Shown piece by piece: positions 8,978 through 60,212 of a stretch of DNA of 64,000 nt. The first letter of the stretch is position 1, and the number at the start of each line of letters is the position of its first letter. Under the pieces are notes generated by a model. The model ran no database searches, was not told the DNA's origin, and saw nothing but the letters and a program-made list of their open reading frames with translations. Source of the stretch: Streptomyces cadmiisoli (GTDB lineage Bacteria > Actinomycetota > Actinomycetes > Streptomycetales > Streptomycetaceae); NCBI RefSeq assembly GCF_003261055.1, contig NZ_CP030074.1, forward strand, positions 905,902 to 969,901, written 5' to 3'. The position numbers and the translations under genes were made by a program.

Positions 8978-9339
8978 ATGTAGGCACTGCGCATCGACCC
9001 GGACGCCACGGTCACGGACCTCAAACTGCCGCGCCCGATGCGCGCATCGAGATCCAGGAACACGTCGGTTCCGACGCCGTCGACCAAGGGTTCACCACCG
9101 GGGTGCCGTTGTGCACATTCACGGCAACGGGCCGAAGCAAGGACTTCCCCAGAACCTGGCCGCATGGGCCTGGGCGAGTGCCTGGCGTGGCATGCTCCCT
9201 GTACCCGCTGGCCGGTCCCATCGTCATCACGGGCCGAACCGCGAGCGGGGACATGGCGGCACTCGACAGCGACCTTGCGCAGCACGCCAAGGCCGTTGCG
9301 CAGACCGTCCGCGACACGCTGTCTGTTGTCTCACACTGA
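8978..9339 (+). pseudogene. Small actinobacterial hypothetical gene, stop at codon 2 and frameshifts
   Basis: A very good ribosome binding site (GAGGAGG) precedes ATG 8978, but the next codon is TAG. Reading on, ALRIDPDATVTDLKLPRP appears in that frame, then in other frames VHIHGNGPKQGLPQNLAAWA and LYPLAGPIVITGRTASGDMA followed by ALDSDLAQHAKAVAQTVRDT. Joined together these look like one compact small protein encoded on streptomycete mobile elements (DUF3846-like by appearance). A single base change from AAG to TAG plus at least one frameshift would account for the damage. The family name is tentative; the broken state is clear. Confidence 0.6.
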
Positions 9340-9541
9340 AACGTCCAAGATCTCTCTCACCGGAATGTCACCTGGAACGCTCTGTTGAGCTGGTGTGTTG
9401 GTTCTATGACGTGACATTGCGTGAAACGTGATCGTGGCAAGTCACGCAAAAGCGCAGGACATTCCGATGCGAATCGCGTAGAAGATTTGATCTTGGTTCG
9501 TGGGTCCGGAGTACCTGTCTTGGTCTATGGGCTTGAAGCGC
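9340..9541 (+). promoter_or_regulatory. Leader-like region before the degenerate array
   Basis: This 200-bp non-coding stretch is less G+C-rich than its surroundings and precedes the first recognisable repeat. It contains an 8-bp inverted repeat, TTGCGTGA at 9417-9424 and TCACGCAA at 9442-9449, and several similar short motifs around GACATT and GGAATGTCACC. It could be an array leader or part of a transposon end; neither is proved. Confidence 0.3.
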
Positions 9542-10468
9542 GGTACATCACTACTTCTCCGCGTGTGCGAGCGTCACGGTCTTCGGTGACGGTTCTGCGT
9601 GTGCGCGCTGGCCTTCGAGGCGGGGCTGCGGATTGCGACCCGCCGCGGTACATCTCTGCGTTCACAGACCGAACCCGCCCTGGCTGGCCGTGAGGGGGGC
9701 GAGTGCTGCTGCACCTCCGCGTATGCGGAATGGGTGAAATGCCCCCGAGGTATGTGGGTGCTGCTGACTGGTGCATCTCTGCGGGTGTGCGGACTCGACG
9801 CCCGCGGGCTCTTGGATGTGTCCGTCACGTCTGGTGCATCTCCGCGCGCGGAGTGGACAGGGTAACGATCCGCGCGTTCGTTCCGTCGATCGGTGCATCC
9901 CTGCGCGTGCGGGTGGACGCGCGCCAGTGGGACTTACCCCGACTAACGGTAGGTGTATTGCTGCGCTGCGGGGTGAACTCGGCATCGCAACCAGCCTCGA
10001 AGTGCCCGAACGGTGCATCTCCGCGCGCGGGGTGGATCCGCATCTGAGGAAGCGGCAGGGCGGACGGACCGGTACATCTCCGCGTGTGCAGGTGGGATCT
10101 TCCTCGGCACGCTGGTAGGTCGCGTCGTACGGTGCATCTCCGCGCGTGCGGTGTAGGCATTAGTCCAGGTGGCGCAGATTCCCGACGAGGCCGGTGCATT
10201 GCATCTCTGCGTGTGCGGAGTGGACGAGACGGCCAGGAGGGCTCCCGGGGCGGTCATCGATGCATCTCCGCTCGTGCGGGGTGGCCGGTATGGGCGATGT
10301 CGATGACCCGGGCGATCACGGTGCATCTCCGCTCGTGCGGGCTGGACGCCGGAAACTGCGAGGCGATGTGCGACACGGCCGGTGCATCTCCGCGTGTGCG
10401 GGTGGACGCCGACACCACCGAGGTCGACTTCCTCGGCACCGGTGCATCTCCGCTTATGGGGGACGGAC
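9542..10468 (+). CRISPR. Degenerate type I-E-like CRISPR array, about 15 units
   Basis: Repeat-like units recur every 59-63 bp. Clear units begin at 9709, 9770, 9833, 9892, 9952, 10012, 10071, 10131, 10199, 10259, 10320, 10381 and 10441; weaker ones near 9542, 9590 and 9647. The consensus begins GGTGCATCTCCGC, has a variable YGTG loop and ends GCGGGGTGGAC; most intervening sequences are 33 bp and unrelated. It resembles the I-E repeat of actinobacteria but nearly every copy differs, mainly by changes and indels in the loop. A 7-bp local duplication interrupts the unit at 10193-10205. The array ends 223 bp before cas3 and is read in the same direction. It may be decaying, or may be a diverged array used only by the adjacent Cas6e. 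Confidence 0.75.
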
Positions 10469-10691
10469 TCTCTTTGACCTGCGCTTGTGTGGTGACTTTG
10501 CCCTTGCGTGATGTCGGTGTGGGCAGGGTGACTGAGGCAGTCTGTCCTGTTTCCAGAGCTGATATTGCGTTCTTTGTAGCTATTTCACTCAAGAGGGCGG
10601 TTGTGGGAAGCAGTCGGCGACCTGCCGGGGCGTGGCGGGGTAGAGGGCGACGTGTTCGGTTTCGGTGGCTGTCAGGAGGGGGAGCGCAGGC

Positions 10692-13598
10692 GTGGGGGTA
10701 GTGGAAGACAGCAGGATCAACGGGCTGACGTTGTGTCTGTGGGGTAAGTACTGTGCCCGTCATGGGCTGATCTATCCGGTGCTGTTCCACATGCTCGATA
10801 CGGCTGCGGTGGCGGGGGAGTTGTGGGACCGGCTACTGACCGGGCCGCAGCGTGACACTGTCGCGGCGGGGCTGGGGATGAGCCGGGCGCAGGCCTGCTG
10901 TGTGGTGATGTTCATCGCAGGCCTGCATGATTTGGGCAAAGTGAGCCGTTTCCAGGCCTGCGAGCCGGTTGCGTGGGCACGGGTCAGCGATGAGCTGCGG
11001 GCCGATGCGGGCCGCTGGAGACTGATGCGGCACGAGCGGGCTTCCGTGCATGCCCTGGTCGGGATCCTCGCGGAGATGGGCTACGAACTGTCCGGTGATG
11101 CCAGCCCGGCCGTGCGGATGGCGCAGATTGCCGGCGGTCACCATGGACGTTTCCCGCAGCTCGATGTGCACGGCGCGGCCAGCGTCCGGCGCGTGCAGGT
11201 CGATCTCGGCGGCCGGCTGTGGCAGGAGATCCGTTACCGCTACGCCGCTCAGGTGCGGCATCTGACGGGTGCCGAAACGGTGCCGGGGCAGGTGTCGGTC
11301 ACGGCGGCGGTACTGATGACCGGGCTGGTGATGGCCGCCGACCGGCTGGCCAGCCAGCGCAAGGTGTGGGCGCCGCGGGCGGATGCGCCCGCCTACGGTG
11401 CTGCCCAGCATTTCGCCTGGGCCCGATGGAAGGCCCGTGAAGTGGTGGAGGAGTCACGGCTGGCGCGGATCGACCTGCCGGTGCTGCCGTTTATCACCGC
11501 GCATCCCCACCTGCGCGCCCCGAACCCACTTCAGGCATCAATCCTGGACAGCCTTCCCCAGCTGGCCGATGCACGGGGCGCCGGGATCGTGCTGGTCACC
11601 GACGGCACTGGCGCGGGCAAGACCGTCACTGCCCTGGAGGCGTCCCGCATCCTCAACGACGCGTGCGGCAGCCGGGGACTGTGCTTCCTGCTGCCCACCA
11701 CGGCCACCGCGGACGCCGCCTACGACACGCTGTGCGGCTATCTTCATGCGCACCGTCCCACCCCGGCCGTGCTCACGCTCGTGCACAACCACAGCTGGCT
11801 GAACGCCGCCTACTCCGATGAGATGCTCGCCCCCGGCGACGTCCCCACCTGCACCGGCGACGACCCCCACACCGACGAAGACGATGACGACGACTGCCGG
11901 CCGCCAGGCAACGGTGGGAAGAGCGGGACCTGGCGGCGGATCCTCCCGGACGGCTGGGTACGCGGCTGGGACCGTGCACTGCTGGCCCAGTTCACCGTCG
12001 CCACCGTCGACCAGGCACTGATGGCCGCGCTCCCGGTACGCGACAGTGCCCTGCGGATGCTGTCCCTGTCGGGCAAGTGCGTGGTCGTCGACGAGGCGCA
12101 CGCGCTCACCGCGTTCAGCCGGCGCATCCTGCTGCGGCTGCTGCACTGGCTCGGTAGCCTGCGCACTCCGGTGGTCGTGCTCTCGGCGACACTGCCGGGA
12201 CAGACGGCACGCGAACTCTTGTACTCCTACCTGGCCGGTGCCGGACACCGCAGACGCGATCTGATCGCGCGCGAGGACGAGTTCACCGTGCCCTACCCGG
12301 GCTGGCTGTTCGCCGACGCCGCCACTGCCCAGACTGCTGTCATCCTTGGTGATGTACGCACCCGGCACGCCGCCGCGCAGCAGCGCACCATCACACTCCG
12401 CCTGGCCCCGGCGCGCTACCGGCGCCTCGAGGTTCCGGCGCGCCGGGCCAGAACGGGGGAGCGGCTGGCCCGTATCGCCGCCGCAGTCGCCCCCGTGGCA
12501 CGGCTGGGCGGATGCGCCGTCATCGTGTGCGCCACGGTCGCCGATGCCCAGGACACCTACCGCTACCTGCAGCAGTTCCTTGAATGGCCCGCAGGCCCGC
12601 AAGACCTGCTGCTGGTCCACGCCCGTTTCCCCGGCCACTGCCTCGAACGGGCGCTGGCCCGGGTCCGTACCCAGCTGGGCCCGTTCGGGCCGCGCCCCGA
12701 ACGGCTGGTGGTGGTCACGACCAGTCTGCTGGAACTCAGCCTCAACATCGACGCCGACCTCGTGGTCAGCGACCTCACCTCGCTGGCCCGGCTGATCCAG
12801 CGCGCGGGACGGCTGTGGCGCTTCGAACAAGCCTGGCAGGACGAACGTCCCCCCGGCATCACCCCGCGTCCGCCCTGGATCCGGGCCCGCGGCCCCCGCC
12901 TCACCGTCCTGCACCCTATCGACCATGACCGCACCACCCTGCTGCCCGAGGCCTGGGCCGCCACTGACCACCCCTACCTCCAGCACGCCAGCGCCCACCT
13001 GCTCACCCTGCCCGGCCACCAGCGGATCACCCTGCCCGAGCAGGCCCAGCACCTGGTCGAACTCGTCCACCAGTCCGGCCTGCCGGCCACCTGGTCCGGC
13101 CCGCTCGCCGCCCTCCACGAGCAGCACCTGGCCGCCGAGCGGGCCGAGGAGCACACCAGCACCATCCATCTCATCCCCCCGCACGACCGTGTCGCCTCCC
13201 TGGCCGACCTGCACCGCCAGAAACTGACCGCCGCGCAGGCCGCCACCCGCCCGCACGACCGGCCCCGCCGCGTCCTTGCCTCCTACCGGCGTCCCGGCCA
13301 CCCGCCCACCCTCGACACAGCCGGCCGCTTTCCCCTGCTCCAGGGACCTCACCTGTGCCCAGCCGCCATCCGCACCGTCCTGCAGCACACCGTGCCGGTC
13401 CCCAGCGCCTGGGCCGCTGCCGCTACCCAGGACCACCAGAGCCCCGAAGCCTGGCAACAGCACCCCCTGCTCGCCGACCTCGTCCTCCTCCCGCACGATC
13501 CGGACCGTCCGCAACCAGTCCAGCTCGGCCACCACCTGCTGCACATCGACGACGAACTCGGCCTCATCCACGGCGAAACGGCCCCCGCAGCGCACTGA
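10692..13598 (+). CDS. cas3: Cas3 helicase-nuclease, type I-E
   Basis: A 968-residue Cas3 with an N-terminal HD nuclease and a superfamily 2 helicase. HD-domain ligands are visible: His33 (FHMLDTA), His79-Asp80 (GLHDLGK), His120 (SVHALVG) and His150-His151 (GGHHGRFP). Helicase motifs are GTGAGKT at about 305-311, VVVDEAHAL, VLSATLPG and LIQRAGRLWR. Cas3 is recruited by target-bound Cascade and degrades DNA. GTG 10692 is chosen because AGGAGGGGGAG lies 7 bases upstream; a GTG at 10665 is possible. An insertion rich in Asp (near TDEDDDDDC) separates the helicase motifs. All catalytic motifs look intact, which is unusual for a cas operon linked to transposase genes. It heads the cas run but is separated from cas8e by 443 bp. 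Confidence 0.93.
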   Translation: MGVVEDSRINGLTLCLWGKYCARHGLIYPVLFHMLDTAAVAGELWDRLLTGPQRDTVAAGLGMSRAQACCVVMFIAGLHDLGKVSRFQACEPVAWARVSDELRADAGRWRLMRHERASVHALVGILAEMGYELSGDASPAVRMAQIAGGHHGRFPQLDVHGAASVRRVQVDLGGRLWQEIRYRYAAQVRHLTGAETVPGQVSVTAAVLMTGLVMAADRLASQRKVWAPRADAPAYGAAQHFAWARWKAREVVEESRLARIDLPVLPFITAHPHLRAPNPLQASILDSLPQLADARGAGIVLVTDGTGAGKTVTALEASRILNDACGSRGLCFLLPTTATADAAYDTLCGYLHAHRPTPAVLTLVHNHSWLNAAYSDEMLAPGDVPTCTGDDPHTDEDDDDDCRPPGNGGKSGTWRRILPDGWVRGWDRALLAQFTVATVDQALMAALPVRDSALRMLSLSGKCVVVDEAHALTAFSRRILLRLLHWLGSLRTPVVVLSATLPGQTARELLYSYLAGAGHRRRDLIAREDEFTVPYPGWLFADAATAQTAVILGDVRTRHAAAQQRTITLRLAPARYRRLEVPARRARTGERLARIAAAVAPVARLGGCAVIVCATVADAQDTYRYLQQFLEWPAGPQDLLLVHARFPGHCLERALARVRTQLGPFGPRPERLVVVTTSLLELSLNIDADLVVSDLTSLARLIQRAGRLWRFEQAWQDERPPGITPRPPWIRARGPRLTVLHPIDHDRTTLLPEAWAATDHPYLQHASAHLLTLPGHQRITLPEQAQHLVELVHQSGLPATWSGPLAALHEQHLAAERAEEHTSTIHLIPPHDRVASLADLHRQKLTAAQAATRPHDRPRRVLASYRRPGHPPTLDTAGRFPLLQGPHLCPAAIRTVLQHTVPVPSAWAAAATQDHQSPEAWQQHPLLADLVLLPHDPDRPQPVQLGHHLLHIDDELGLIHGETAPAAH

Positions 13599-14041
13599 AG
13601 CCCGCCGCAAGACAGGCCGCAGAATCCCGACGCAGCCACCGCCGGCCTCACCCTGCCCGCGGAGCGCCACCACTGCCGAGGGACATGCGAACCCGGCTAC
13701 AGCGCACGGCGGTGCAAACGGCGCGCACCGTCCCCCGTTGCGCGCCTGGCCCGCACTCCAGCCGTTGATCACACTAGTTCGCAGGCTCTGTACCGCGGTT
13801 CACCACGGATGCTTTCCTTGATCCATGTGACGGTGCGTATCGCACGTCACGGAATGTTTCCGTCCGTCGTCTCTGCGGCCCCTGCGATCCGCTCCCGCCC
13901 CAGGACGTCCTCCACGGACCCAGCCCGGGCGCGCCCCCCTCGCGCCGCATCCAGTCCATAGCGCTCTGCCCGAGCGCGTCGCCCAGGCCTCCTCGCCATG
14001 GCCCCGCACAGCCCGGCAGGAAGCGAAGAGGAGTGTTCGCG
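13599..14041 (+). promoter_or_regulatory. cas3-cas8e spacer with palindromic operator-like site
   Basis: No gene was recognised in this 443-bp gap. A near-perfect palindrome lies at 13827-13850: GTGAC and GTGCG on the left pair with CGCAC and GTCAC on the right around TAT, with one extra G on the left. This could be a repressor binding site or an RNA hairpin in the leader of the Cascade genes. A second promoter for cas8e-to-tnsC probably lies in this gap. GAGGAG at its end is the ribosome binding site of cas8e. Confidence 0.45.
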
Positions 14042-15622
14042 ATGCCACCCCCGAGTTTCCGGATCGACCTGAGCCCCTGTATCCCGGTGCGCTGCGGCAA
14101 GCACATCGAGTACGTCGGCTTACGTGAACTCCTCACGGACGCACACCGCATCGACGACCTGGCCCTGCCCCTGCCTCCCGCCCGGTCCGGCCTCTACCGG
14201 GTCCTGGCCGCGATATGCGCCGCCGTCACCGAACTCGACGACCCGGACCAGCCGATCAAGGAGTGGCTGGACCACCGCGCAGAGCTCCTCAGACGCGAAG
14301 ACGGCTTCGATACCGATGCCGTGCACGCCTACTTCGACGCCGATCCCGGCGCCTTCGACCTCTTCCACCCCACGCGCCCGTGGTGGCAGGACGCGGCACT
14401 GGCCGTCCAGTGCCCCAAACGCAGCGGGATCAACTCCCTCATCTACGGCCGCGCGGCCGGCCGCAACCTGGTCTGGTTCAACCCCCGCCACACCGACACC
14501 GATCCCCAGCCCGTGCCCACCAGGGAAGCGCTGTGGAGCCTGCTCGCCTACCACTACTACGGACCCTCCGGGCGGGCCACCACCCGGACCGTCGATGGAG
14601 TCACCAGCGGGCAGCTGAAAGCCGGACCGCTGCGCTCCACCGTCTCCTTCCACCCCCGCGGCCGCACCTTGTACGAGACCCTCCTGCTGCACCAGACGCC
14701 CTACCGCGGCGACGATCAGGCCCCCGGCAGTGACGCCTGCCCCTGGCAGGAACCCCCTGCCCATCCCCTGCGGACACCCCATGCGGCGACCTGGCCCAAG
14801 CGGCTGCTGACCGGCCGCTCCGTGCACGCGGCGCTCCTGGTCCCGGACGCCAGTGGCGAACACGTCACCGACGCCTACCTGACCTGGGCCACCCAGCACC
14901 CGCTGCTCGAGGCCACCGATCCCTACCTCGTCTACGACATCGACCCCAAGGCGCCCGCGGAACGCCGGCGCAGCCCGCGCCGCGCGAACGCCGACCACGC
15001 CCTGTTCCGCGCCCTGCCCGCGCTGGCACTCGCCGGTGATGAACACCGGCCAGGCTGCCGGCCCGAGGCATTCACCACCATCAACAGCCTTCCCAAGGAC
15101 ACGCGCGCCCGCCTGCGCGTGTGGGTGTGCGGATTCGACCAGGAAGGCCAGGTCAACAACCGTATCTGGTACACCAGCCTGACCCCGCCGATCTGGCCGC
15201 TGGCCCAGGAGAACGACCCCGTCAAGGCCTCCCGCATCGTCGAGTGCTGCGCCGCCGCGGAGACTCTGGGCGCCGCCCTGCGCCGACAAGCCGACCAGGC
15301 ATGGAAGGACACCGGCCTCACCCCGCCCCCGGCCAAGGGCGGCGGGAAAAGAGACACCAGCCCGTGGGCCGGACAGGCCCTCGCCGGCTACTGGCCGCGC
15401 GCCGAGCAGGCCTTCTGGGAACTCCTCGACGACACACGGTCCGCCTACGGGGTGTTCGCCGCCACGGCCATCACCGCACTGTCCGAGACCACACGGGACG
15501 CCCTCAACCGCCTGCCCAAGGCCGGCCCGGCCCTGGCCCGCGCCGTGCAGAGCCTGCGACGCGCCGGCACACCCCCCGACGACACCCTCCGCCCGACCAA
15601 AGGACCGCATGCCCAGCCGTGA
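14042..15622 (+). CDS. cas8e: Cas8e (Cse1), large subunit of Cascade
   Basis: A 526-residue Cse1-type protein, close to the usual size of about 500. Cas8e recognises the PAM, starts R-loop formation and recruits Cas3. It was recognised from the typical segments DLFHPTRPWWQDAAL and GRAAGRNLVWFNPRHTD in the N-terminal half, the YHYYGPSGRATT stretch, and from its position before a Cse2 gene. ATG 14042 has GAGGAG 8 bases upstream; an in-frame GTG at 14033 sits closer to it and is less likely. It overlaps cas11e by 14 bases. No frameshift or truncation was seen. Confidence 0.9.
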   Translation: MPPPSFRIDLSPCIPVRCGKHIEYVGLRELLTDAHRIDDLALPLPPARSGLYRVLAAICAAVTELDDPDQPIKEWLDHRAELLRREDGFDTDAVHAYFDADPGAFDLFHPTRPWWQDAALAVQCPKRSGINSLIYGRAAGRNLVWFNPRHTDTDPQPVPTREALWSLLAYHYYGPSGRATTRTVDGVTSGQLKAGPLRSTVSFHPRGRTLYETLLLHQTPYRGDDQAPGSDACPWQEPPAHPLRTPHAATWPKRLLTGRSVHAALLVPDASGEHVTDAYLTWATQHPLLEATDPYLVYDIDPKAPAERRRSPRRANADHALFRALPALALAGDEHRPGCRPEAFTTINSLPKDTRARLRVWVCGFDQEGQVNNRIWYTSLTPPIWPLAQENDPVKASRIVECCAAAETLGAALRRQADQAWKDTGLTPPPAKGGGKRDTSPWAGQALAGYWPRAEQAFWELLDDTRSAYGVFAATAITALSETTRDALNRLPKAGPALARAVQSLRRAGTPPDDTLRPTKGPHAQP

Positions 15623-16220
15623 CGAACGCCGCTGCCACTACGACGCCTTCGTCGCTCACGTCCGCAGCCTGTGCAGCACCCCACGCATCCGCAGCCTCCT
15701 CGAGGACGGCCGAGGACGGCCCCCCACCCAGTGCCCGCGCATGGACGCCTACCTCGTCAAACCCTGCCAAGGCTTCGGCGCCCGCCGCGCCCACTACACA
15801 ACCGCCTCCCTGATCGCCCTGGAACGTCCCGCCCCGGACTGGACCGAGCAGGCACCCTCCGCCCCACTCCCGCACCCCGGCCTCACCCCGGACGATCTGC
15901 TGGAGCGTGAACCGGCACCGCCGGACAACTGGGCACGACGTCCCAACCTCGGCCGAACCCTGGCCGACGCCGCCCGCGCACACCCCCACACCGCAGCAGG
16001 CTGGCAACGCGAAGTGGAAGTGATGGGCGTGCTCTCCGCCGACCTGCTGCACACCCGACTGCCCCACACCGTCCAGCGCCTCCTCAGCCTCGGCCTGGCA
16101 TACGACGTCGCCGTGCTGCTCGAAGACCTCGCCCAATGGGACTTCGAACCGCTGGAAGTCGCCGGCCGCTGGCGCCACTCCTTCTACCTGACCGTCCCCG
16201 ACACCCTCCTGGAGCTGTGA
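15609..16220 (+). CDS. cas11e: Cas11e (Cse2), small subunit of Cascade
   Basis: A 203-residue, largely helical Cse2 protein. Two copies line the belly of the I-E Cascade complex and stabilise the displaced strand. Supporting features are its size, the basic residues early in the protein, LVKPCQGFGARRAHYTTASL, and LARTL-type arginine-rich segments near the middle (NLGRTLADAARAHPHTAAGW). It starts inside the end of cas8e and its TGA overlaps the ATG of cas7e by one base, so translation is probably coupled. A short tandem repeat at 15706-15720 (CGAGGACGGC twice) adds a few residues near position 35. Confidence 0.85.
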   Translation: MPSRDERRCHYDAFVAHVRSLCSTPRIRSLLEDGRGRPPTQCPRMDAYLVKPCQGFGARRAHYTTASLIALERPAPDWTEQAPSAPLPHPGLTPDDLLEREPAPPDNWARRPNLGRTLADAARAHPHTAAGWQREVEVMGVLSADLLHTRLPHTVQRLLSLGLAYDVAVLLEDLAQWDFEPLEVAGRWRHSFYLTVPDTLLEL

Positions 16221-17413
16221 TGCACACCCGCTACCTCGACATCCACGTGCTCGAACACCGGCCGCCGTCCTGCCTGAACCGGGATCGGCACAACATGCCC
16301 AAGACCATGACCGTCGGCAACGCCACACGCATCATGGTCCCCGCCCAGGCACAACGACGCCCCCAGCGCCTGGCACTGGAGACCACGCTCGAAGAACCCG
16401 CCGCCCGCACCCGCAACCTCCCCCCACAGGTCGCCCAGGCGCTGCGCGCAGCAGGCTGGCCCGAGGAACTGGCCCGCTTCGCCGCCGGACAGATCGCCCG
16501 CTCCGCCACTACCAAAGGCCTGGAAACCAATCCCAAGGAAGACCACCGCACCAACGCCATGCTCCTGGTCGCCGCCGGCTCCATCGTCGAGGACCTCGCC
16601 GAGCTGTGCACCGCTCACCGCGCCGACCTCGAGAAGGGCCTGGCCCGCCTCCAGAAGAAGAAGGAGCCCGACGACAGCGACGACACCAAGCCCGGCCGCG
16701 GCAAGCCGCCCGCCCTGCTGCCCACCGACCAGGTGGCCGCCTGCCTGAACCGTCCCACCGCCACCATCCACCTCTTCGGCCGCATGCTCGCCGGCCTGAC
16801 AGACGCCGACGTCCCCAGCGCCGTACAGACCGCCCCAGCCCTCACCACGCACACAAGCGACCTGCAGCCGGACTTCGTGACCGCAGTGGACGACTGGCAG
16901 GACCCGGGCGACCGCGGCAGCGCCTTCATGGACACCACGTTCCTGACCAGCGGAGTGTTCTACCGGTTCACCACGGTCAACCTCACCGACCTGACCCGCA
17001 AACTCGATGGCGACCAGAATCAGGCGCTACGCCTGGCCGGACTGTTCATGCGCGCCGTCATCATGACCGTGCTCCCCGCGAAGCAGACGTCCACCGCCCC
17101 GCACACCGTGCCCGACCTCGTCGCCTACGCCGTCCGCGACGGCCGCCCCGTCACCTACGCCAGCGCCTTCGAACAGCCCGTGCAAGCCACCCCCAAAGGC
17201 GGCTACCTCACCCCCAGCTACCACGCCCTGGACACCTGCGCCGGCATCACACATCGGCTGACCGGAACCAGCGACCTCGTCGGCCACGGCTACGCCACCG
17301 CCCAGAACAACGACGCAGCCCACCTCGGCACCCGGCACGACAGCTTCGACACCCTCATCGCCGCAGCCCTCGCACACGCCGCCACCGGCCAGCCCCCAGC
17401 CAACGCCGCATGA
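16220..17413 (+). CDS. cas7e: Cas7e (Cse4/CasC), Cascade backbone
   Basis: A 397-residue Cas7 protein that forms the six-subunit crRNA-binding backbone of Cascade. The N-terminus YLDIHVLEHRPPSCLNRD followed by GNATRIMVPAQAQRR corresponds to the conserved I-E Cas7 start (h-x-IH-L-x-x-x-P-x-x-LNRD) and the RxxxSSQ-like position. The C-terminal half has FMDTTFLTSGVFYRFTTVNL and VLPAKQTSTAPHTVPDLVAY, the loop usual in this family. ATG 16220 overlaps the cas11e stop codon. A charged linker with KKKEPDDSDDTKPGRGK occurs near residue 150. Confidence 0.92.
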   Translation: MHTRYLDIHVLEHRPPSCLNRDRHNMPKTMTVGNATRIMVPAQAQRRPQRLALETTLEEPAARTRNLPPQVAQALRAAGWPEELARFAAGQIARSATTKGLETNPKEDHRTNAMLLVAAGSIVEDLAELCTAHRADLEKGLARLQKKKEPDDSDDTKPGRGKPPALLPTDQVAACLNRPTATIHLFGRMLAGLTDADVPSAVQTAPALTTHTSDLQPDFVTAVDDWQDPGDRGSAFMDTTFLTSGVFYRFTTVNLTDLTRKLDGDQNQALRLAGLFMRAVIMTVLPAKQTSTAPHTVPDLVAYAVRDGRPVTYASAFEQPVQATPKGGYLTPSYHALDTCAGITHRLTGTSDLVGHGYATAQNNDAAHLGTRHDSFDTLIAAALAHAATGQPPANAA

Positions 17414-18201
17414 GCGCCCTGCTCCTGCGCCTCGCAGGCCCCCTGGCAGCCTTCGGCACCAGCGCCGCCTTCCACGACCGCGACACCGCCCCCCACCCCA
17501 CCCGCTCCGCCCTGATCGGCATGTTCGCCAACTGCGCCGGACGCGAACCCCACCACGCCCTCGCCCCCTTCACCGAGCTGCCCGGCCAGCCCCGCTACCA
17601 GGACCTGGGATTCCTCATCCGCATCGACCGGCCCGGCACGCCCCACACCGACTTCCACACCGTCGGCGGCGGCCACCCCCGCGACAAGCAACTGCGCACC
17701 AGCGGCGGCCCCCAACGCCCCGAGGCCCAGTCCACTCTCATCTCCCACCGCCACTACCTCGCCGACGCGGTCTTCACCGTCGCCGTCACCGGCCCCACCC
17801 CACTCCTGCAGAGCATCGCCGGCCACCTCCGCCACCCCCACAACGCTCCCTACCTCGGCCGCCGCACCTGCGTCCCCACCGAACCCCTCGTCCTGGCCAC
17901 CGCCATCCCGGACCCCCTGGACGAACTCACCTGCCGCGCCCCGCTCTCCCTCGCCCGACCACCCCGCCCCCACACCTCCACCGTCAACGTCGACTTCATC
18001 CACGAAGACCCCCCACCCAACCCCACCACCGCCATCGACCACTACGAACTGTGCGACCAGCCCGTCGACTTCACCCCCGGCCACCGCCGCTACCACCCCC
18101 GCAACGTGTGGCGCACCCGCATCCCCCTCCCTGCCGCCCTCTACGCCGGCCCCGACCCCCTCACCACCCTCGCCGCCTACATGCACCCGGAGCAGCCATG
18201 A
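17410..18201 (+). CDS. cas5e: Cas5e (CasD), Cascade 5' handle-binding subunit
   Basis: A 263-residue Cas5 of the RAMP fold. The start SALLLRLAGPLAAFGTSAAF is the classic Cas5 N-terminus (LLLRLxGPxxSFG), followed by DTAPHPTRSALIGMFANCAG, the usual P-T-x-S-x-x-GhhA segment. Later segments include TVGGGHPRDKQLRTSGG and LGRRTCVPTEPL. It binds the crRNA 5' handle and holds Cas8e. It overlaps cas7e and cas6e by 4 bases each (ATGA), so it belongs to one translationally coupled unit. Confidence 0.92.
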   Translation: MSALLLRLAGPLAAFGTSAAFHDRDTAPHPTRSALIGMFANCAGREPHHALAPFTELPGQPRYQDLGFLIRIDRPGTPHTDFHTVGGGHPRDKQLRTSGGPQRPEAQSTLISHRHYLADAVFTVAVTGPTPLLQSIAGHLRHPHNAPYLGRRTCVPTEPLVLATAIPDPLDELTCRAPLSLARPPRPHTSTVNVDFIHEDPPPNPTTAIDHYELCDQPVDFTPGHRRYHPRNVWRTRIPLPAALYAGPDPLTTLAAYMHPEQP

Positions 18202-18869
18202 CCCCCACCGCCACCCTCACCCGCATCCGCCTCAACACCGCCCACCACGCCGTACGCCGTGACCTGGCCGACCGCGTCCAGCTCCACAAAACCCTCATGC
18301 GCCTGACCCCCGGAACCCCCAGCCCCCACCCCCGCCGCGACGCCGGACTCCTCTTCCGCCTCGACACCGACCACGACGAGCCCACCCTGCTCGTCCAGAC
18401 CACCCAGCCACCCAATCTCAACGGCCTGCCCGCCCGCTACGGCACCCTTCTCGCGGCCCGCGACCTCACCCCCCTCCTGCACGCCCTCACTCCCGGCCGA
18501 CACGTCCGCTACCGCATCACCGCCGTCCCCGTCCGCCACCTCCCCGGCACCCCCTGCGGCCGACGACCCGACGGCCGCCTCCTGCGCCGCCGCGGCACCC
18601 CGACCGCCCTGCACGGCCACGACGCCGCCCAGTGGTGGCAGCGCAGAGCCAGCCAGTCCGGCCTCGCCCTCACCAGCATCAGCCTCACCCCCCGCACCTT
18701 CGAACGCTCCCCGCACGCCCCCCACCGGCCCGGACTCGACCACCAGCTCGTCCAGTTCGACGGACACGCCCGCATCACCGACGCCCATCTCCTCGCCCAG
18801 AGCATCTGCCGCGGCATCGGCCGCGCCCAGTCCTACGGCGCAGGCCTACTCAGCCTCGCCCCCGCCTGA
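18198..18869 (+). CDS. cas6e: Cas6e (CasE), crRNA-processing endonuclease
   Basis: A 223-residue Cas6e that cuts CRISPR transcripts at the repeat hairpin and stays bound to the 3' end. The N-terminal active-site region is DLADRVQLHKTLMRL, with His30 at the catalytic histidine position; the tyrosine often found three residues earlier is Val27. The glycine-rich C-terminal motif GIGRAQSYGAGLLSLAP matches the family (GIGRAKxxGCGLLxL). It is the last cas gene. The next gene is not cas1 but a TnsB-like transposase, 45 bp downstream on the same strand. Its natural RNA substrate is probably the degenerate array upstream of cas3, or the cleaner array at 48.2 kb, or both. Confidence 0.92.
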   Translation: MTPTATLTRIRLNTAHHAVRRDLADRVQLHKTLMRLTPGTPSPHPRRDAGLLFRLDTDHDEPTLLVQTTQPPNLNGLPARYGTLLAARDLTPLLHALTPGRHVRYRITAVPVRHLPGTPCGRRPDGRLLRRRGTPTALHGHDAAQWWQRRASQSGLALTSISLTPRTFERSPHAPHRPGLDHQLVQFDGHARITDAHLLAQSICRGIGRAQSYGAGLLSLAPA

Positions 18870-18914
18870 CCCCGCACCACCTCACGCGGGCAAAGCACCC
18901 GAGAGGACATCCCT

Positions 18915-20561
18915 GTGATCTTCGAGCAGTCGCCACGCGACACCAGCGTGCGCCGGGCAGCCGTCGGCCGGCTCATGTTCCTCGTCCAGCACAACAGCCT
19001 CACCACCGACCACATCAAGACCGTCGCCGAGGCTTTCGGAGTCCACCCGCGCAGCGTGCGCCGGTGGATGGACAACGCCGCACAGCACAACGGCCGCTAC
19101 ACCCCCGGGCGCCGCGCCTCCTTCACTCTCACCCAGGAGATGCGCGACGCCGTCGCCCTGTTCTGCGGCAACATCGCCGCCGCCTACCGGGACCTGCGTA
19201 AACGAGGCAGCCTGGGAGACGACCCCGTCTGCTACGCCACCTTCCACCGCGCCGTCACCACCGCCTACACCCCCGGCTTCCTCGCCGGCCTGCGCGGCGG
19301 CGAGAGGGAACGCCGCAAGTTCGACGTCCACTTGACACGGGGCGTCGGACACCGCAATCAGGCATGGGAAGGCGATCACGTCGAAGCGAGCGTCTGGGTC
19401 AACGTCAACGGACACCGCCGCAAACCCTGGATCACCTGGTTCATCGACTGCGCCAGCGACGCCGTCTGCGGCCTGTCCGTCTCCGCACAGACCCCCAGCC
19501 GGGAAAACATCCTCCTCGCCGTGCGATCCGCTGTCCTGCGAGGAGGCAATCACGGCCCTTTCGGAGGCAGCCCCGGCCTCGTCCGCATCGACAGAGGAAA
19601 AGACTTCCTGAGCGACACCGTCGACGCCGCCTTCGGCGTCCTCGGCGTCCGCGTCGTCGACCTGCCTCCCAGGCACCCAGAGCTCAAGGGAACTGTCGAA
19701 GCCCTCAACAACGCCGTCAAAACCATGCACTTCCCCGGCCTCCCCGGCTACGTTCACGCCCCCCGAACCAGCCGGCGCACCAAACCAGACCCCGATGAAC
19801 GCCTGCTGACCTACGAGGCATTCATCCGCCACCTCCTCGCATGGGTCCACGAGTGGAACCACGAGCACCGCATCCGCACCCGCGACAACCGCACCCCACA
19901 CGAGCTGTGGAACAACGACCTCACCCCCATCTACGACCCCGACCCCGCAGACCTCCACTTCACCCTCGAAACCCATCCCACCCCCCTGACGATCAACTCA
20001 GACGGCGTTCACTGGGGGAAGAAACGCCGCTACCTCGCTCCCTACATGCAAGGCCTTGGCGGCACCAAGGTCGTGCTGCGCTACATGCCCCGCCAGGAAC
20101 GCTCCGTCGAGCTCTACGACGCCAAAGACGGCACTTACCTGGGCCCAGCCGTCCTGCAAAACGAAGCAACCCCCCAGGAACGACGTGAGGTACGGCGCGC
20201 CGCCGACCGAGAAGCCGGCCGCCTGCGCACCGCCCTGGACAAGGCGAACCGCCAGCGCGAGGAACGCTTCGAGGCCGACACCGTCCCCACCACCCCCCGC
20301 CCGACCAGCGACATCACCCAGGAACAAGCAACCGAAATCCTCAACGGGCACCGCCAGGACGCACACGCCCGCGAAACACGCCCCGACCTCATCCCGCTGC
20401 CCAACCCCACCGCCACCTGGAACAACACCGCAAACCCGGCCGAAACCCAGCTCGGCTCCACGGCCCCTCTGCTCCCGCCGCTGCCCAACCCCACCGACTC
20501 CTGGCACGCCACACCCCTGTCCAGCACACCCGAGGAGCCCACCGATGAACCACACGATTGA
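18915..20561 (+). CDS. TnsB/TniA-like DDE transposase fused into the cas operon
   Basis: A 548-residue transposase of the TnsB/TniA/MuA type. An N-terminal helix-turn-helix (AEAFGVHPRSVRRWMDNA, about 39-55) precedes an rve-fold core with Asp154 (WEGDHVEASV), Asp226 (LVRIDRGKDFLSD) and Glu262 (LKGTVEALNN), spaced DD-35-E, all intact. A Mu-type C-terminal barrel follows (DGVHWGKKRRYLAPYMQ, then VELYDAKDGTYLGPA), and a proline-rich tail. GTG 18915 has GAGAGGAC about 8 bases upstream. It starts 45 bp after cas6e with no terminator seen, so it is likely in the cas transcript. It is unlike the IS21 IstA in this window, having the Mu-type barrel. No TnsA nuclease gene is nearby, suggesting replicative rather than cut-and-paste transposition. 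Confidence 0.88.
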   Translation: MIFEQSPRDTSVRRAAVGRLMFLVQHNSLTTDHIKTVAEAFGVHPRSVRRWMDNAAQHNGRYTPGRRASFTLTQEMRDAVALFCGNIAAAYRDLRKRGSLGDDPVCYATFHRAVTTAYTPGFLAGLRGGERERRKFDVHLTRGVGHRNQAWEGDHVEASVWVNVNGHRRKPWITWFIDCASDAVCGLSVSAQTPSRENILLAVRSAVLRGGNHGPFGGSPGLVRIDRGKDFLSDTVDAAFGVLGVRVVDLPPRHPELKGTVEALNNAVKTMHFPGLPGYVHAPRTSRRTKPDPDERLLTYEAFIRHLLAWVHEWNHEHRIRTRDNRTPHELWNNDLTPIYDPDPADLHFTLETHPTPLTINSDGVHWGKKRRYLAPYMQGLGGTKVVLRYMPRQERSVELYDAKDGTYLGPAVLQNEATPQERREVRRAADREAGRLRTALDKANRQREERFEADTVPTTPRPTSDITQEQATEILNGHRQDAHARETRPDLIPLPNPTATWNNTANPAETQLGSTAPLLPPLPNPTDSWHATPLSSTPEEPTDEPHD

Positions 20562-21324
20562 CACCACCACCCCAGCCAACGACCACTACCTCGGCCTGGC
20601 CGGAGCCAGCATCCTGCCCACCACCGCCTCGCGCCTGACCCAGCGCCACCTGACCACGGTCATCAAAGCCCAAGCCCTGCTCTGCATCCACGGCGACGTG
20701 GGACTCGGCAAAACCTTCGCCATCAACACCAGCCTGCGCGACCTCGCCCCTGACAACACGCTCTGGCTCGAATGCCGCAAGGGGGCCCCGCTCGGTACTC
20801 TGCGTCCCGCCCTCTATCGCGCGCTGGCGCTGCCCGGAGAACCTCCCGCCAAAGGCGATGCGTTCGACCAACTCCTCGTACAGGCCTTCGCCGAACAGCA
20901 CCGTGTCCTGGTCTGCGACGAAGCCCAGGGCCTGACCAAGACCTCCCTGGAGTACCTGCAGACTCTCTGGGAGAACAGGCGCACCCAGCTGACCGTCATC
21001 CTCGCCGGCGGCGACAACTGCCTCCAGCGCATCCGCAGCTGCTCCGGTCTCTTCTCCCGTATCCCGATCTACCAGCAGTACCAGCCGCTCACCCCCGACG
21101 AAGTCCTGGCCTTGATGCCGACCTACCACGCCTTGTGGCAGAACGTCGCCGCCGACGACCTGATGTGGATCAACGACGCCGCGTGTCACGGCAACTTCCG
21201 CAACTGGGCCAAGATCACCTTCCACATCCAGGACATCCTCGAACAGCACGCCGAGACCGCCTGGTTCAGCCGCGACACGGTCCGCATGGTCCTCACCTTC
21301 CTCGACAGCAGCATCCGTAGCTGA
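20545..21324 (+). CDS. TnsC/TniB-like AAA+ ATPase
   Basis: A 259-residue AAA+ ATPase. Walker A is GDVGLGKT at 50-57 and Walker B VLVCDEAQGL at 121-130, followed by LEYLQTLWENRRTQLTVILA with a sensor-1-like region. The C-terminal part has MPTYHALWQ and GNFRNWAKITFHI, motifs shared with two other ATPases near 53-55 kb in this window. In Tn7, Tn5053 and Mu this protein selects target DNA and activates the transposase. The ATG overlaps the end of the transposase gene by 17 bases and GAGGAG precedes it, so the two are translated together. At 259 residues it is on the short side for TnsC and close to TniB and MuB. Confidence 0.87.
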   Translation: MNHTIDTTTPANDHYLGLAGASILPTTASRLTQRHLTTVIKAQALLCIHGDVGLGKTFAINTSLRDLAPDNTLWLECRKGAPLGTLRPALYRALALPGEPPAKGDAFDQLLVQAFAEQHRVLVCDEAQGLTKTSLEYLQTLWENRRTQLTVILAGGDNCLQRIRSCSGLFSRIPIYQQYQPLTPDEVLALMPTYHALWQNVAADDLMWINDAACHGNFRNWAKITFHIQDILEQHAETAWFSRDTVRMVLTFLDSSIRS

Positions 21325-48853: not shown

Positions 48854-51238
48854 CTACCAGCGCATGCCCAACTCATCGAGGTCGTTGCGGCGCTGCTCGC
48901 TCAGCTTCGGGGCGCGTCGGCGGGTGTTGTCGAGGAAGGCGCCGAGTCGTATGGGCGTGCCCTGGATGGTCTCGACGTGCTGGCGGGGTACCCGCAGGTG
49001 CCCTTCGCGGGCGTGGAACTGGCGTGCGGCCGCAAGGTTGGCCTCCCAGCGCGCATCCTGCGACACCCGCGCCAGCACCTCACCCTCACTCGGGGGTTCG
49101 ATCCCCAGCGTCTCGAGTAGGTACTGCTGTGCGGGGGCCAGCTTGTCCCACCCGGCACGCTGCACGGCGATCCAAGTCCCGAGGTCTTCGCCCTGCATCA
49201 CCACCTCGCCTGGCCCGGCCGGGAGAGTGCCGCCGTTCTTCACGTGCGTGAGCGCCAGCCGAAGACAGCGCTGCCATCCGATCTCCCATTCCGGGCACCA
49301 CCCGGGATCCACCTCGTCCAACGCTTCCATACGCGCGTGTGACAGCTCCCCGGCGTAGGGGACGCCGGTTTCCCCGCCTGCGCGGCGTACGGCGTTCTCA
49401 CGGGTCTTCCGGGCCATCGCACGCTGATTTTTCAACCACGCCCCGAGGGGGAAGGAGTCCCATACGGCGGTTGCTGCTGGCAGGCAGTGGGAGTGGATTG
49501 CGGCGTAGTTGCGGGCGACGTCGAGGCCGGCGTCCCATGCGGAGGCGTGGACGGACCAGACCATGCCCAGCGTCTCCAGCTCGGCAACCCGCGAGGCTTC
49601 CAGGGTGCCGGCCGCGTAGTACCGGCGCTGATCCGCGATCCACGCCCCGAGTGGATGCGATCCGACCGACGACCAGTCTTCCGGGGTGACGTACGTGAAC
49701 GGCACCCGCAACTCATTCTCGCCGGTCTCGCGCAGCCACCGTGTGGCTGCCTCGATGCCGCGCCGCCAGTACGCCCGTTCCGGGTCGATGACCCGTAGCT
49801 GCACGAACTGGGTGAGCACGGCGGGGTCGCGTTCCTCGCTAAACCGCAGCACCCCCGCCGCCCGCGCAGACACCGACACCCGACCGTCGACGTCCTCGTC
49901 CAGGCCCTGCTCCGCACCCTCCTCCACACCGTCCGCGCCGTCCGTCTCGATGGCTGAACGGCTGTTGCGCAGACGGGGATCGGCGAGCGCTTCGATGGTG
50001 TCCGAGTCGTGCGCCCGCAGAGCTCCAAGCACCTTCGTCAGGGTCCCGTACGCATCCGAAGTCAGCAATTCATTCGGATCTTCACCCGGCCCGACGAATA
50101 CCGGAACGACCAGCGAAGCCAGCTTCCCCCGCTCCGGCTTCAACCGCAGCGCACCCCCACCATCTGCACAATATCCACCATGCTGCCCCGCGCATCGGAG
50201 AAAAGGACGGCGTCACATTCAGCGGTATCGACACCTTCCCCGAGAACCCTAACGGAACTCAACACCCGCAATTCCGCACGCACATTACGGCCCTCGAAAT
50301 CAGGTCCTCCGAGGAAGTCCGAGGCGAACTCATCGAGCACGTTACGCCGGTGGCCGGGAGCGTGTTCACCGTAGAGCCAGTCCGCCCACACCTGCCCGGC
50401 AGACGGATACCGGTCCGGGTCGTCCTCGGCGAGCCGGGCCGCGACCACCGGCACCGACACCGCCATCGCCTCAGCCTCCTGAACCCGACTGTGAAACGAC
50501 AGCACCCGACGGAACCGCTCCTCCGACGCAGCATGCATCAACCCGGCCTGAACAGCCGCCAAGCGCGCCCCGCGCACCGCATCGGACCCGGTGTCCTCAC
50601 TGGCCAGCGCCGCGTACAGGCCGGGATCACGGATGTCGAGACACAGCACCTGATACGGCGCCACAATCCCCCGACCGATCGCCTCCGACAACGTCAACCG
50701 GTAAGCCACCGGCCCGAACACCGGCGAGTCGTCCTCCATCGACGCCACCAACCGCGGCCGCTCACCCTCCGCCTCCCACACCCGCGCAGTCGCCGTCATA
50801 TACAGCCGACGCTCCGCGGGCAGCTGCGCCTGGTCGTGCACAGCCGCCCACGGCTTCAAGCCATCACCACTCGTCCGGTGCGCCTCGTCCACGACCATGA
50901 GGCTCCACACCTCCAGGCCAGCCGCGTGCGCACGCTGAAGGACACCCAGGCCGACGGACGCGTACGTCGCGAACACCGTCACGGTCTCCAAACCACCCAC
51001 CCAGGAGACCAGTTCGACAGGATCAGTCGTGCAGGGCAGACCCTGACTCTCCTCAGCCCGCAACGAGCACACCCCGACCATCGCCCCGGACCGACCCGCC
51101 CGACGCCACGCGCCGGCCATCTGCGTCAGCAGGTCCAGCGTCGGCACCAAAACCAGCACGCGACGCGCGGAAAGCCGACGCGCGGATTCTGCTCCGATGA
51201 GGGTTTTACCGGATCCGGTAGCGGCGATCACCTGCGTC
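48854..51238 (-). pseudogene. DEAD/DEAH helicase with helicase-associated domains, 5'-truncated and frameshifted
   Basis: The minus strand encodes a superfamily 2 helicase: VIAATGSGKTLIGAES, LVPTLDLLTQMAGAWRRAGR, LMVVDEAHRTSGDG, MTATARVWE and VLGEGVDTAECDAVLFSDAR. Near 50150 a one-base deletion shifts the frame between DIVQMVG and ALRLKPERGKLASLVVPVF. The second half carries about four helicase-associated repeats (LGAWIADQRRYYAAGTLE, LGTWIAVQRAGWDKLAPAQQ) and ends LDELGMRW. The N-terminus is missing: coding stops right before the Walker A segment at about 51238, where unrelated DNA begins. Such helicases occur in streptomycete mobile and defence islands. The truncation point may mark an insertion by the adjacent transposition module. 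Confidence 0.85.
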
Positions 51239-51654
51239 TGTGAGGTTCGGGGAGGGTGTCACTGGGGTGTTCGGGTTTTCTCGTCAGTGGTGCTGGCTTG
51301 TTTTTGTGCTGGCCGGTGGGTGTTTCGGCTGGTTGATCTTGGTGGTGGTGTTCCGGATTTGGTGGTGGTGTGTTCTCGGATCGGTTGGTGGGGTGTTCGT
51401 CGGATCTCCTTCGAGGCGGGCTCTATAGCGCATGAGGTTGTGAGTCGGAGGTGAAAGGGGGGTCTCTGTCATCCGTCCAGGTGATCGGCGGGGCTCTTGT
51501 CGGGGGTGTCGGCTTTAGCGTCTCATTCGTCGCGCCTGTCACGGGTGTGACGTGAACTGCCTCGTGTGGGGGCGGTAGTTGACTGTCCGGAGGCTGGTGC
51601 TGTGATCACTGCTTGGTTACCGGTTCGCTCTGTGTGCGGGTATCGGCTCTGGTG
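51239..51654 (+). other. Non-coding region before the second transposition module; candidate transposon end
   Basis: No gene was recognised in these 416 bp. The region begins TGTGAGGTTCGGGGAGGGTG exactly where the helicase reading frame is lost, and TGT is the usual terminal triplet of Tn7/Mu-type transposons. It holds several G/T-rich repeats such as GGTGGTGGTGTTC and GGTGTCACTGG that could be transposase binding sites. It also has to contain the promoter of the transposase gene. No matching inverted end was found elsewhere in the window. Confidence 0.4.
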
Positions 51655-53256
51655 ATGGTGGGCGGCGACGCTTCTGAGACCGTGGCCGCTTTGGGGACCG
51701 GGGATGACGGTTTGGGGCGGCATCGGGATGAGCTGAGGGTTGCGGCGGTGGCTCAGCTGCTGCGGCTGCGGGCCGCGGGGGAGTTGACGACGGCGCATGT
51801 GCGGCTGGTCGCCGACGCGGTGGGCGTGCACAAGAGGACGGTGTGGAGCTGGCTGGCCCAAGCGGAGGAGACCGGATCCGCGGAGAAGCCGGAACGCCGC
51901 CGTTTCCGGGTCACCGAGGAGGTCATCGATGTCCTTGCCGACTATCAGGGCAACGTGAAGCGCGCTCACGAGCGTTTGGTCGAGATGGCGGTGGCTGCGG
52001 GCCGCAAGCCGCCGGGGCTGACGACGCTGCACGATGCGATCGCGCGGGATCTTGATCCGGGTTTCATGGCGGGCCTGCGCGAGGGGATCCCGGCGGCCCG
52101 CGGTTTCGATCCCTGCTTTCAGCGGCCGGCGGTGGCGCGGAACGAGGTGTGGGAGGGGGATCACAAACAGGCCGAGACCGTGGTGTTGATGCCGGACGGG
52201 AAGACGTCGAGGGTGTGGGTGACGTGGTTCGAGGACCGCGGTACTGGCCATGTGATGGGCTGGGCGGTCACCGCCGGCTCCGCGCACCGGGGTTCGGTCC
52301 TGGCGGCGGTGCGTATGGCGGTGCTGCGCGAGGAGCCCTATGGTCCGGCCGGCGGTCTGCCCTATCTGGTGCGCGTGGATGGCGGTGCCGACTTCCTGTC
52401 CAAAACGGTCCGACGGGCCTTCGGTCTGCTCGGTGTCCCTGTGCACCGTGTGCGCAGTGCCCGGCACAAGGGCGGTGTCGAGCGGCTGAACCGTACGAGC
52501 ATGACGCGTTTCTTCGCTGATCTGCCCCGTTACACGAAGGCGCCCCGGCTCGATCACCGCCGCCGTCTGGGTGATTCGGATCCGCCGCTGACGTTCGAGG
52601 CGTTCGTGGGCCTGTTGGGGGAGTGGGTTCACAAGCACAACACCGTGCATGTCATCGAGCGCACGGGGATGACGCCGCTTGAGGCCTGGCAGGCGGATCC
52701 CACTGAGATCCGGCCCGAGCCGCGCGCCTGCGAGCTGCGTGCCTTCATGCTGGAGAGCGACCACAGGGTCCGCAAGATCACCAGCCATGGGGTGGAGTTC
52801 GGGGGCCGCGCCTATATGCCGGAGAACGGGGTGGGCCGGATCGGGCTCGAGGTGCGGGTGCGGTGGATGCCGCATCACACCCACGAGATCGACCTGTACA
52901 CCTTTCGCGGCAACCGCTACCTGGGCCGGGCCTTCCTCAGCAACGAGGCCGGCGAGGAACTGCGCGCCAAGGTGCTCCGCGAGCGGGACGAGCACAGCAA
53001 AAGCCTGCGACGTGCCCTGCAACGCTCCGGCGAGCGCCGGCGGGAACGCCACCTGCCGTCCACCCGGCCCGAGGTGCCCATCCGTGCCCTGCGCATGACC
53101 GAGCAGGAGGCCCGCGCCGAACTCGACGGCACGAAGGCGCCCGCCACGCCGCGGCGCCGCGCCCAGCCGTACCGGCCCCTGACCCCCGTTCCGGCGACGT
53201 GGAAACGACCCGGCCAAGACCTCAACCACACCGCATCCAAGGACGACGCCTCGTGA
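51655..53256 (+). CDS. Second TnsB/TniA-like DDE transposase
   Basis: A 533-residue transposase from ATG 51655 (in-frame GTGs at 51634 and 51652 are alternatives). An N-terminal helix-turn-helix (ADAVGVHKRTVWSWLAQAE) precedes an rve core with Asp169 (EVWEGDHKQAETVV), Asp242 (LVRVDGGADFLSK) and Glu276 (KGGVERLNRTSM); all three are intact. A Mu-type barrel follows (HGVEFGGRAYMPENGVG, then YTFRGNRYLGRAFLSNEAG) and a basic tail. It has the same layout as the transposase behind cas6e but is a clearly diverged paralogue. Its stop overlaps the next ATPase gene. No TnsA gene is nearby. Confidence 0.87.
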   Translation: MVGGDASETVAALGTGDDGLGRHRDELRVAAVAQLLRLRAAGELTTAHVRLVADAVGVHKRTVWSWLAQAEETGSAEKPERRRFRVTEEVIDVLADYQGNVKRAHERLVEMAVAAGRKPPGLTTLHDAIARDLDPGFMAGLREGIPAARGFDPCFQRPAVARNEVWEGDHKQAETVVLMPDGKTSRVWVTWFEDRGTGHVMGWAVTAGSAHRGSVLAAVRMAVLREEPYGPAGGLPYLVRVDGGADFLSKTVRRAFGLLGVPVHRVRSARHKGGVERLNRTSMTRFFADLPRYTKAPRLDHRRRLGDSDPPLTFEAFVGLLGEWVHKHNTVHVIERTGMTPLEAWQADPTEIRPEPRACELRAFMLESDHRVRKITSHGVEFGGRAYMPENGVGRIGLEVRVRWMPHHTHEIDLYTFRGNRYLGRAFLSNEAGEELRAKVLRERDEHSKSLRRALQRSGERRRERHLPSTRPEVPIRALRMTEQEARAELDGTKAPATPRRRAQPYRPLTPVPATWKRPGQDLNHTASKDDAS

Positions 53257-56298: not shown

Positions 56299-56305
56299 TG
56301 GTCGG

Positions 56306-56647: not shown

Positions 56648-56669
56648 CAGCTTGCGGCACAGCACCCTG

Positions 56670-56760
56670 TCACCAGCGCATGCCGAAGGTGTCGAGGCCG
56701 CCTCGCCGGGCAACAAGACGATGGACCGCAAGCTCAAGCCCTCGCTGTGGACCGCCTCGT
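56670..56760 (-). pseudogene. Helicase-associated protein tail remnant
   Basis: The minus strand ends a short frame with RLVARRGGLDTFGMRW and TGA at 56670-56672. The LDxxGMRW ending equals that of the helicase at 48854 (LDELGMRW), so this is the last few codons of a second helicase-associated protein. Everything upstream is replaced by the recombinase-like fragment on the other strand. Confidence 0.5.
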
Positions 56761-57136: not shown

Positions 57137-57184
57137 TGAGCTGTGCTGCACGACGAGCGTGCCGGGGAGGCGTGAAAACGGATC

Positions 57185-60145: not shown

Positions 60146-60212
60146 TGCGAACCATTCTTCTGCCGTCCCACCAAGTTGAAACGAGATCCGTCCTATAGGC
60201 AGACTCATCATG

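Follow-up and report, generated by a model that had tools for sequence, protein, structure and literature searches.

A further probable I-E5 locus in Streptomyces cadmiisoli, and related arrays whose spacers match genes of linear-replicon ends and resident transposons

The 64,000-nucleotide stretch of Streptomyces cadmiisoli DNA analysed here (NZ_CP030074.1, the contig C2 of genome G000; G000:C2:905902-969901, hereafter the window) carries a type I-E cas operon that runs into genes for a TnsB-like transposase and a TnsC-like ATPase. This arrangement has already been described, and the window locus is very probably a further member of I-E5, a variant of the CRISPR (clustered regularly interspaced short palindromic repeats)-associated transposons (CASTs). 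On balance, we favour the reading that its guides are aimed at the telomere zone and act by interference in the branch to which the window belongs. The evidence comes from sequence comparison: the linkage of cas and transposition genes, the single clade formed by their TnsB, the terminal position and orientation of the loci, the spacer targets with their protospacer-adjacent motif (PAM), five mapped left ends, and the loss of HD residues in one branch of Cas3. The first-pass annotation of this DNA had described the operon. It did not include the array that precedes cas3, nor the position near a telomere, what the guides target, or the fact that the arrangement was already in print.

The operon lies on the forward strand and holds all six type I-E effector genes in the order cas3, cas8e, cas11e, cas7e, cas5e, and cas6e; tnsB begins 45 bp further on and is overlapped by tnsC (Table 1), as first annotated. 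Cas3, called intact-looking at that stage, does have its HD and helicase motifs. The catalytic Asp154, Asp226, and Glu262 of TnsB are invariant across 22 relatives. Fold comparison shows that the window TnsC resembles MuB and the TnsC of known elements, and a comparison with the PDB by sequence returned only weak ATPase matches. A DDE transposase and a MuB/TnsC-type AAA+ ATPase are thus both present, which is the gene set of Tn7/Mu-type transposons. The claim that cas1 and cas2 are absent holds for cas1, which was not found in this genome; no search was made for cas2 or tnsA. In 12 other genomes or records, cas1 was found once, as a weak partial match (G253). The reported lack of an evident TniQ was borne out, since PF06527 gave no match in this genome (positive control, matches in three of eight searched genomes; none in 14 controls). 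In the I-E5 locus L137, cas3 is preceded at about 3.4 kb by a TniQ match (G253:C1:10991017-10991448).

Table 1. Features of the window discussed in the text (positions are those of the whole stretch).
Feature	Position	Strand	Remark
Candidate left transposon end (TGTTGTCTCACACTGAAACGTCC)	9324..9346	+	tentative; resembles the L168/L138 ends (TGCTGAGTCTCA.TTCA.TG.CC)
Degenerate CRISPR array	9546..10469	-	about 14-15 repeats; unit mostly 59-67 bp
Spacer with 33/33 matches on four linear plasmids	9978..10010	-	
cas3	10665..13598	+	HD and helicase motifs intact
cas8e (cse1)	14033..15622	+	
cas11e (cse2)	15609..16220	+	
cas7e	16136..17413	+	true start may be later, because the Pfam match opens at residue 34
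cas5e	17407..18201	+	
cas6e	18198..18869	+	ATG at 18198 is the likelier start; longest reading frame from 18051
tnsB-like DDE transposase gene	18915..20561	+	Mu C-terminal domain
tnsC-like AAA+ ATPase gene	20545..21324	+	MuB/TnsC fold
Second array	48245-48761		regular, nine repeats; repeat common in canonical Streptomyces I-E arrays
Terminal helicase gene	48854..51231	-	DEAD and HA domains, two open reading frames; frame ends at transposon end 51239
Second, cas-less telomeric transposon	51239..64000	+	starts TGTGAGG after three different flanks
tnsB2	51613-53256		inside the cas-less transposon
tnsC2	53253-about 54000		inside the cas-less transposon

The linkage recurs outside the window. By tblastn and script counts, cas6e lies 6-169 bp before tnsB in 36 rows; without the window itself and five rows that duplicate another locus, the cas6e-tnsB order is found in 30 other distinct loci. 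We inferred a TnsB tree by a quick method from 97 rows, and in this tree a branch with a support of 100 in the approximate likelihood-ratio test (SH-aLRT) sets apart 33 rows: the 32 linked to cas genes, and L059, the contig of which opens roughly at tnsB. Next to them stand the cas-less L013, L052, and L054. Cas and TnsB distances are correlated (r 0.93-0.95). That unrelated cas and transposase genes lie side by side by accident, a view with nothing found in its favour, is already refuted by this tree and by the linkage. The first-pass annotation had allowed for such an accident if no other genome kept the linkage or if transposon ends separated cas6e from tnsB; the linkage recurs, and the five left ends that could be mapped lie beyond the array instead. 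TnsB relatives of any kind are present in 166 of 392 genomes of the genus, and close I-E5-like DNA in 15 of 394 genomes of the family, this genome counted; one of the relative searches scored only the 7995 candidates with the most words in common.

Arrays were found in 24 of the 25 regions upstream of cas3 that were tested; that of L166 is doubtful, and L056 has none in its 436 bases upstream. The canonical I-E systems of Streptomyces plasmids used as controls (L174-L179) share with the window the order from cas3 to cas6e and an array upstream of cas3. Unlike the window, they carry cas1-cas2 downstream of cas6e, and their repeats are nearly perfect and their units constant at 61 bp: units of exactly this length make up 432 of 449 in the controls vs 228 of 345 in I-E5 arrays, and the mean repeat identity to consensus is 0.97 vs 0.81. 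Judging from the orientation of its repeats relative to these canonical arrays, the window array is probably transcribed away from cas3; a first reading, with the leader on the far side of the array, was overturned by this comparison. Many spacers are common to L131 and L139. We also counted compensatory changes in the stems of the degenerate repeats (25 vs 11 expected), yet the canonical controls exceed expectation as well (12 vs 2.8), and we make no claim from them.

To find protospacers we used 2.4 Mb of loci gathered around tnsB, counting matches outside arrays with at least 26 aligned identities. A protospacer was found for 40 of 344 I-E5 spacers vs 2 of 449 canonical I-E spacers (Fisher 2.5e-13), and for none of the eight spacers of the window's second array. 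TT stands at the expected protospacer edge (5'-AA in the sense of the CRISPR RNA) in 31 of the 40; the PAM of the Escherichia coli I-E system is AAG. The best matches fall in tnsC for 10 spacers, in tnsB for four, and elsewhere for 26, the last including Tap and Tpg (identified with curated NCBIfam equivalog models), helicases, and other transposases. At the I-E5 locus L099, a tap gene (18435-20831) lies downstream of tnsC, and a spacer of another I-E5 array (L136) matches this tap gene at 29/33 identity.

The plasmid searches, made in an independent collection, point to the same zone. Matches were listed for 15 of 25 plasmid records for the window array, and for 30 of 46 and 40 of 131 records for the L137 and L168 arrays. 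One window spacer matches four linear plasmids at 33/33, with protospacers flanked by TT and 3.2-5.4 kb from the ends, in a gene for a 157-aa protein without assigned function; its other listed matches lie 3.2, 3.5, 22, 44, and 214 kb from a plasmid end. The L168 array matches helicases 1.6-14.7 kb from the ends in nine of the linear-plasmid records listed; among the matches listed for the L137 array, distances to the ends are 8-31 kb for transposases and 9-168 kb for helicases. No self-target was found in this genome. A canonical array, searched against the plasmids, gave so many matches to other arrays that the result cannot be used as a control; the second array of the window likewise matched only other arrays in the plasmid collection. 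In the phage search, neither the window array nor a canonical array gave a match, and the L139 array gave two weak ones, both in one phage.

Cas3 divides the I-E5 loci. All six HD residues that we checked are kept in 20 of 24 Cas3 proteins, that of the window among them, and Cas3 of the window branch looks active from its sequence. In L049, L058, and L168, all six are replaced, and L138 has lost five, keeping the HD aspartate. The four loci form one clade by the TnsB tree. Every one of the 24 proteins has the DEAH and SAT motifs, and 23 have QRAGR, with one gap; an HD fold can still be recognised in each of the three HD-less proteins tested (L049, L058, and L168). All eight spacers of this clade with a found protospacer carry the TT edge; L049 has no such spacer. 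The spacer L058|7 has an 87% similar counterpart in L049, so not all spacers of the clade arose after the HD residues were lost. The loss of these residues, the kept helicase motifs, and the TT-flanked guides together suggest that guidance was retained without cutting.

The loci are also terminal. Because C2 has 969,901 bases, window position 64000 is its end. The last 12.76 kb of C2 are repeated inverted at the other C2 end and inside both C1 ends (copies at the window end, C2:1-12764, and both C1 ends, 99.9% or more identical), i.e., the block stands on chromosome and linear plasmid ends through recent end exchange or repeated transposition. C1 extends about 14.9 kb beyond it, and therefore the true telomeres of C2 are probably missing from the assembly. 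The block is a cas-less transposon that interrupts a terminal helicase gene at both C2 ends, at different places, which is direct evidence that a terminal element of this genome, with a TG end, is mobile. Its end at 51239 is marked by a GGTGTTCGG cluster (TnsB-site cluster), which was not found upstream of I-E5 arrays. Such cas-less Mu/Tn7-like elements share with I-E5 the family of TnsB and TnsC and a left end of the TG type, are likewise transcribed toward the replicon end, and likewise insert in terminal helicases; they differ in having no cas genes. In 11 complete chromosomes, all 16 I-E5 copies scored are oriented toward the end closer to them, at distances of 4.4-336 kb. The position in CP047318 is approximate, and the count leaves out G118 and G762 (records starting at dnaA), incomplete assemblies, and the plasmid CP134205, whose I-E5 locus lies near 283 of 452 kb.

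We could map the left end of five I-E5 elements. L092, L047, and L169 have a sharp boundary in common, TGTGAACT..., which lies 158-250 bp beyond the array; the flank is an HA-domain helicase in L092 and L047 and, read by eye, resembles an ion channel in L169. L168 sits within a rival tnsB, near codon 190, and L138 within a rival tnsC, near codon 222; the two elements start with TGCTGAGTCTCA, 234 and 310 bp beyond their arrays, respectively. TGTGA strings had been taken for these two ends, wrongly, for the interrupted rival genes show that the true ends are some 95 and 105 bases more distant; TGTGACCTGC as the end in L137/L167 was not confirmed. The window has a candidate left end 221 bp beyond its array, of a pattern expected by chance about 0.4 times per 900 bases. 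At 8916-9296 there is a TTGCGCAG cluster, with a counterpart beside L140, which was considered as a possible set of transposase sites. In these two related loci alone among the I-E5 loci scanned, TTGCGCAG/CTGCGCAA clusters (window 8916-9303; L140 1301-1456) stand between a DUF2637 gene and the array. Neither a right end nor a target duplication was found for I-E5 elements.

These observations would be best explained if a lineage of telomeric Mu/Tn7-like transposons, with TnsB and TnsC, had once captured a type I-E effector without cas1-cas2. The resulting element, seated near the end of a linear Streptomyces replicon, would load Cascade from its degenerate array and recognise protospacers with an AA-type PAM. 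The genes recognised would mark the ends of linear replicons and resident transposons: tnsB, tnsC, tap, tpg, terminal helicases, and other terminal reading frames. Because Cas3 looks active in the window branch, linear plasmids that enter the cell and rival telomeric transposons are there probably destroyed or crippled once recognised, and the end would be kept for the element itself, which TnsB-TnsC would mobilise. The use of the array by this Cascade, the activities of the proteins, and the competitive benefit are predictions of this scheme. The same recognition may also steer TnsC/TnsB, a guided transposition without TniQ that would fit the nuclease-dead branch. A bolder reading, which we rate as less likely than not, is that I-E5 guides serve in an RNA-guided contest over chromosome ends, directed against telomere-maintenance genes (tap, tpg, and the terminal helicase) and the transposition genes of rival telomeric transposons, and that in one branch, where Cas3 would be nuclease-dead and helicase-live, they act without cutting, by guided insertion or silencing. 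The target list and this branch make I-E5 function testable, with a defined PAM, target genes, left ends, and both active-looking and naturally HD-less Cas3. If the guides do steer mobile DNA to telomere genes, they would be part of an RNA-guided arms race over the ends of linear bacterial replicons.

Several points weigh against interference aimed at the telomere zone. Expression, interference, and transposition by the window locus are all predicted. The 40 spacers with protospacers include copies common to several arrays (about 29 are distinct), at least two of them (L139|12 and L169|1) may be array pieces, and nine lack the PAM. Gathering the set around tnsB inflates the tnsB and tnsC targets, and the canonical control shares the set, not the reason for its enrichment. 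A strong match exists for a single window spacer, and of its nine listed plasmid matches three lie as far as 22, 44, and 214 kb from the nearest plasmid end; the L137 helicase matches lie mostly 15-168 kb from the ends, among the matches listed. The phage search does not discriminate, because the canonical array also gave none. Finally, the degeneracy of I-E5 repeats is even along the array, with leader-side repeats no better than others, which could mean that the array is decaying.

If guided transposition were instead the main function, Cascade, perhaps with the Cas3 helicase, would bring TnsC to telomere-zone targets and TnsB would insert nearby, as in a CAST without TniQ. The first-pass annotation had proposed a type I-E relative of Cascade-guided transposons; the linkage, a transposase of the telomeric-transposon family, and the lack of a TniQ match in this genome support that kinship and match I-E5. 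The HD-less clade, with its helicase motifs and TT-flanked guides, speaks for such a function, as do insertions inside targeted gene families: rival tnsB (L168), rival tnsC (L138), and the HA helicase (L092 and L047). The naming of I-E5 as a CAST in the part of PMC12669027 covered, and the reported ability of a type I-D CAST to work without TniQ (PMC11656645, in part), also favour it. However, no spacer of L047, L092, L169, L168, or L138 matched its own flank (for L047, within 101 flank bases only). Known protospacers lie at no fixed distance from these two insertion points in tnsB and tnsC, 111-231 nt in tnsB and 132-463 nt in tnsC to the nearer edge, except that L170|5, from another array, spans the tnsC insertion site. 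Since helicase genes are entered by the cas-less element of the window too, CRISPR is not required for the choice of site. I-E5 arrays reach up to 37 repeats, unlike the typically very short CAST arrays described in the covered part of PMC11656645, and the HD residues are intact in most Cas3. We consider guided transposition unlikely as the main function.

Two other explanations appear much less probable still. TnsB-TnsC might form an adaptation module replacing Cas1-Cas2, a proposal of Faure 2019 as told in the parts of PMC8730458 and PMC12231136 covered. In its favour, tnsB-tnsC stand in the place of the cas1-cas2 of canonical plasmid systems (6/6 control loci), cas1 was not found in this genome and only once, as the partial match in G253, in the 12 others, the unit length is more variable than in those systems, and loci with 91-94% identical cas cores have few or no spacers in common. 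Yet the nearest kin of these TnsB are transposases of cas-less telomeric elements, and transposon ends do occur, although they had been reported as absent. The commonest unit length is still 61 bp and the PAM has been conserved, which ordinary acquisition would predict; the leader-side repeats are not fresh copies. Equally improbable to us is an ordinary defensive I-E system carried as cargo, with no functional tie to TnsB-TnsC or to telomeres, which the first-pass annotation had also considered. The intact motifs of the window Cas3 and the lack of a fixed guide-to-insertion distance agree with it, but the bias of the targets to the telomere zone already makes it weak; the confined cas6e-tnsB spacing, the strong co-divergence within one clade, and the loss of HD residues with the helicase kept argue the same way. 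We retain interference at the telomere zone as the preferred reading for the window branch.

The covered parts of three articles bear on what was known of these loci. PMC8730458 describes Streptomycetaceae I-E loci with tnsB-tnsC and an array, without cas1-cas2 and with no ends detected, together with the adaptation hypothesis; PMC12231136 reports the same loci with variable spacer length. The window resembles them in gene order, array, lack of cas1-cas2 as far as searched, and variable spacer length; they were reported without transposon ends, whereas five left ends are mapped here in relatives of the window. PMC12669027 presents I-E5 as a CAST variant of telomeric transposons without TniQ-TnsD, with an active Cas3 HD and possibly a dual function. 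The window is like it in its I-E effector, active-looking Cas3 HD, lack of a TniQ match, and telomeric transposase family, and shows no difference from what is described there; the text covered has nothing on guide targets, left ends, or an HD-less branch. In their relevant text, none of the three cites an experiment on function. Literature searches returned no paper on I-E5 guide targets, within a coverage that the study cited in PMC12669027 (Hsieh et al. 2025) lies outside, and the novelty of the end orientation, the guide targets, the HD-less branch, and the left ends is uncertain.

Other features of the window are minor. The second array has no cas genes of its own nearby, and a two-repeat remnant at 44869-44958, on the strand opposite to it, adjoins a group II intron match (45001-45076). 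Within the terminal cas-less element, 60508-63359 encodes JetD and an SbcC-type Walker B protein (Wadjet-like), a possible anti-plasmid cargo. An IS21-type element (IstA/IstB) occupies 29937-32035, and 33658-44138 holds two very large reading frames, of 1240 aa with Laminin_G_3 domains and of 2194 aa with an RHS repeat.

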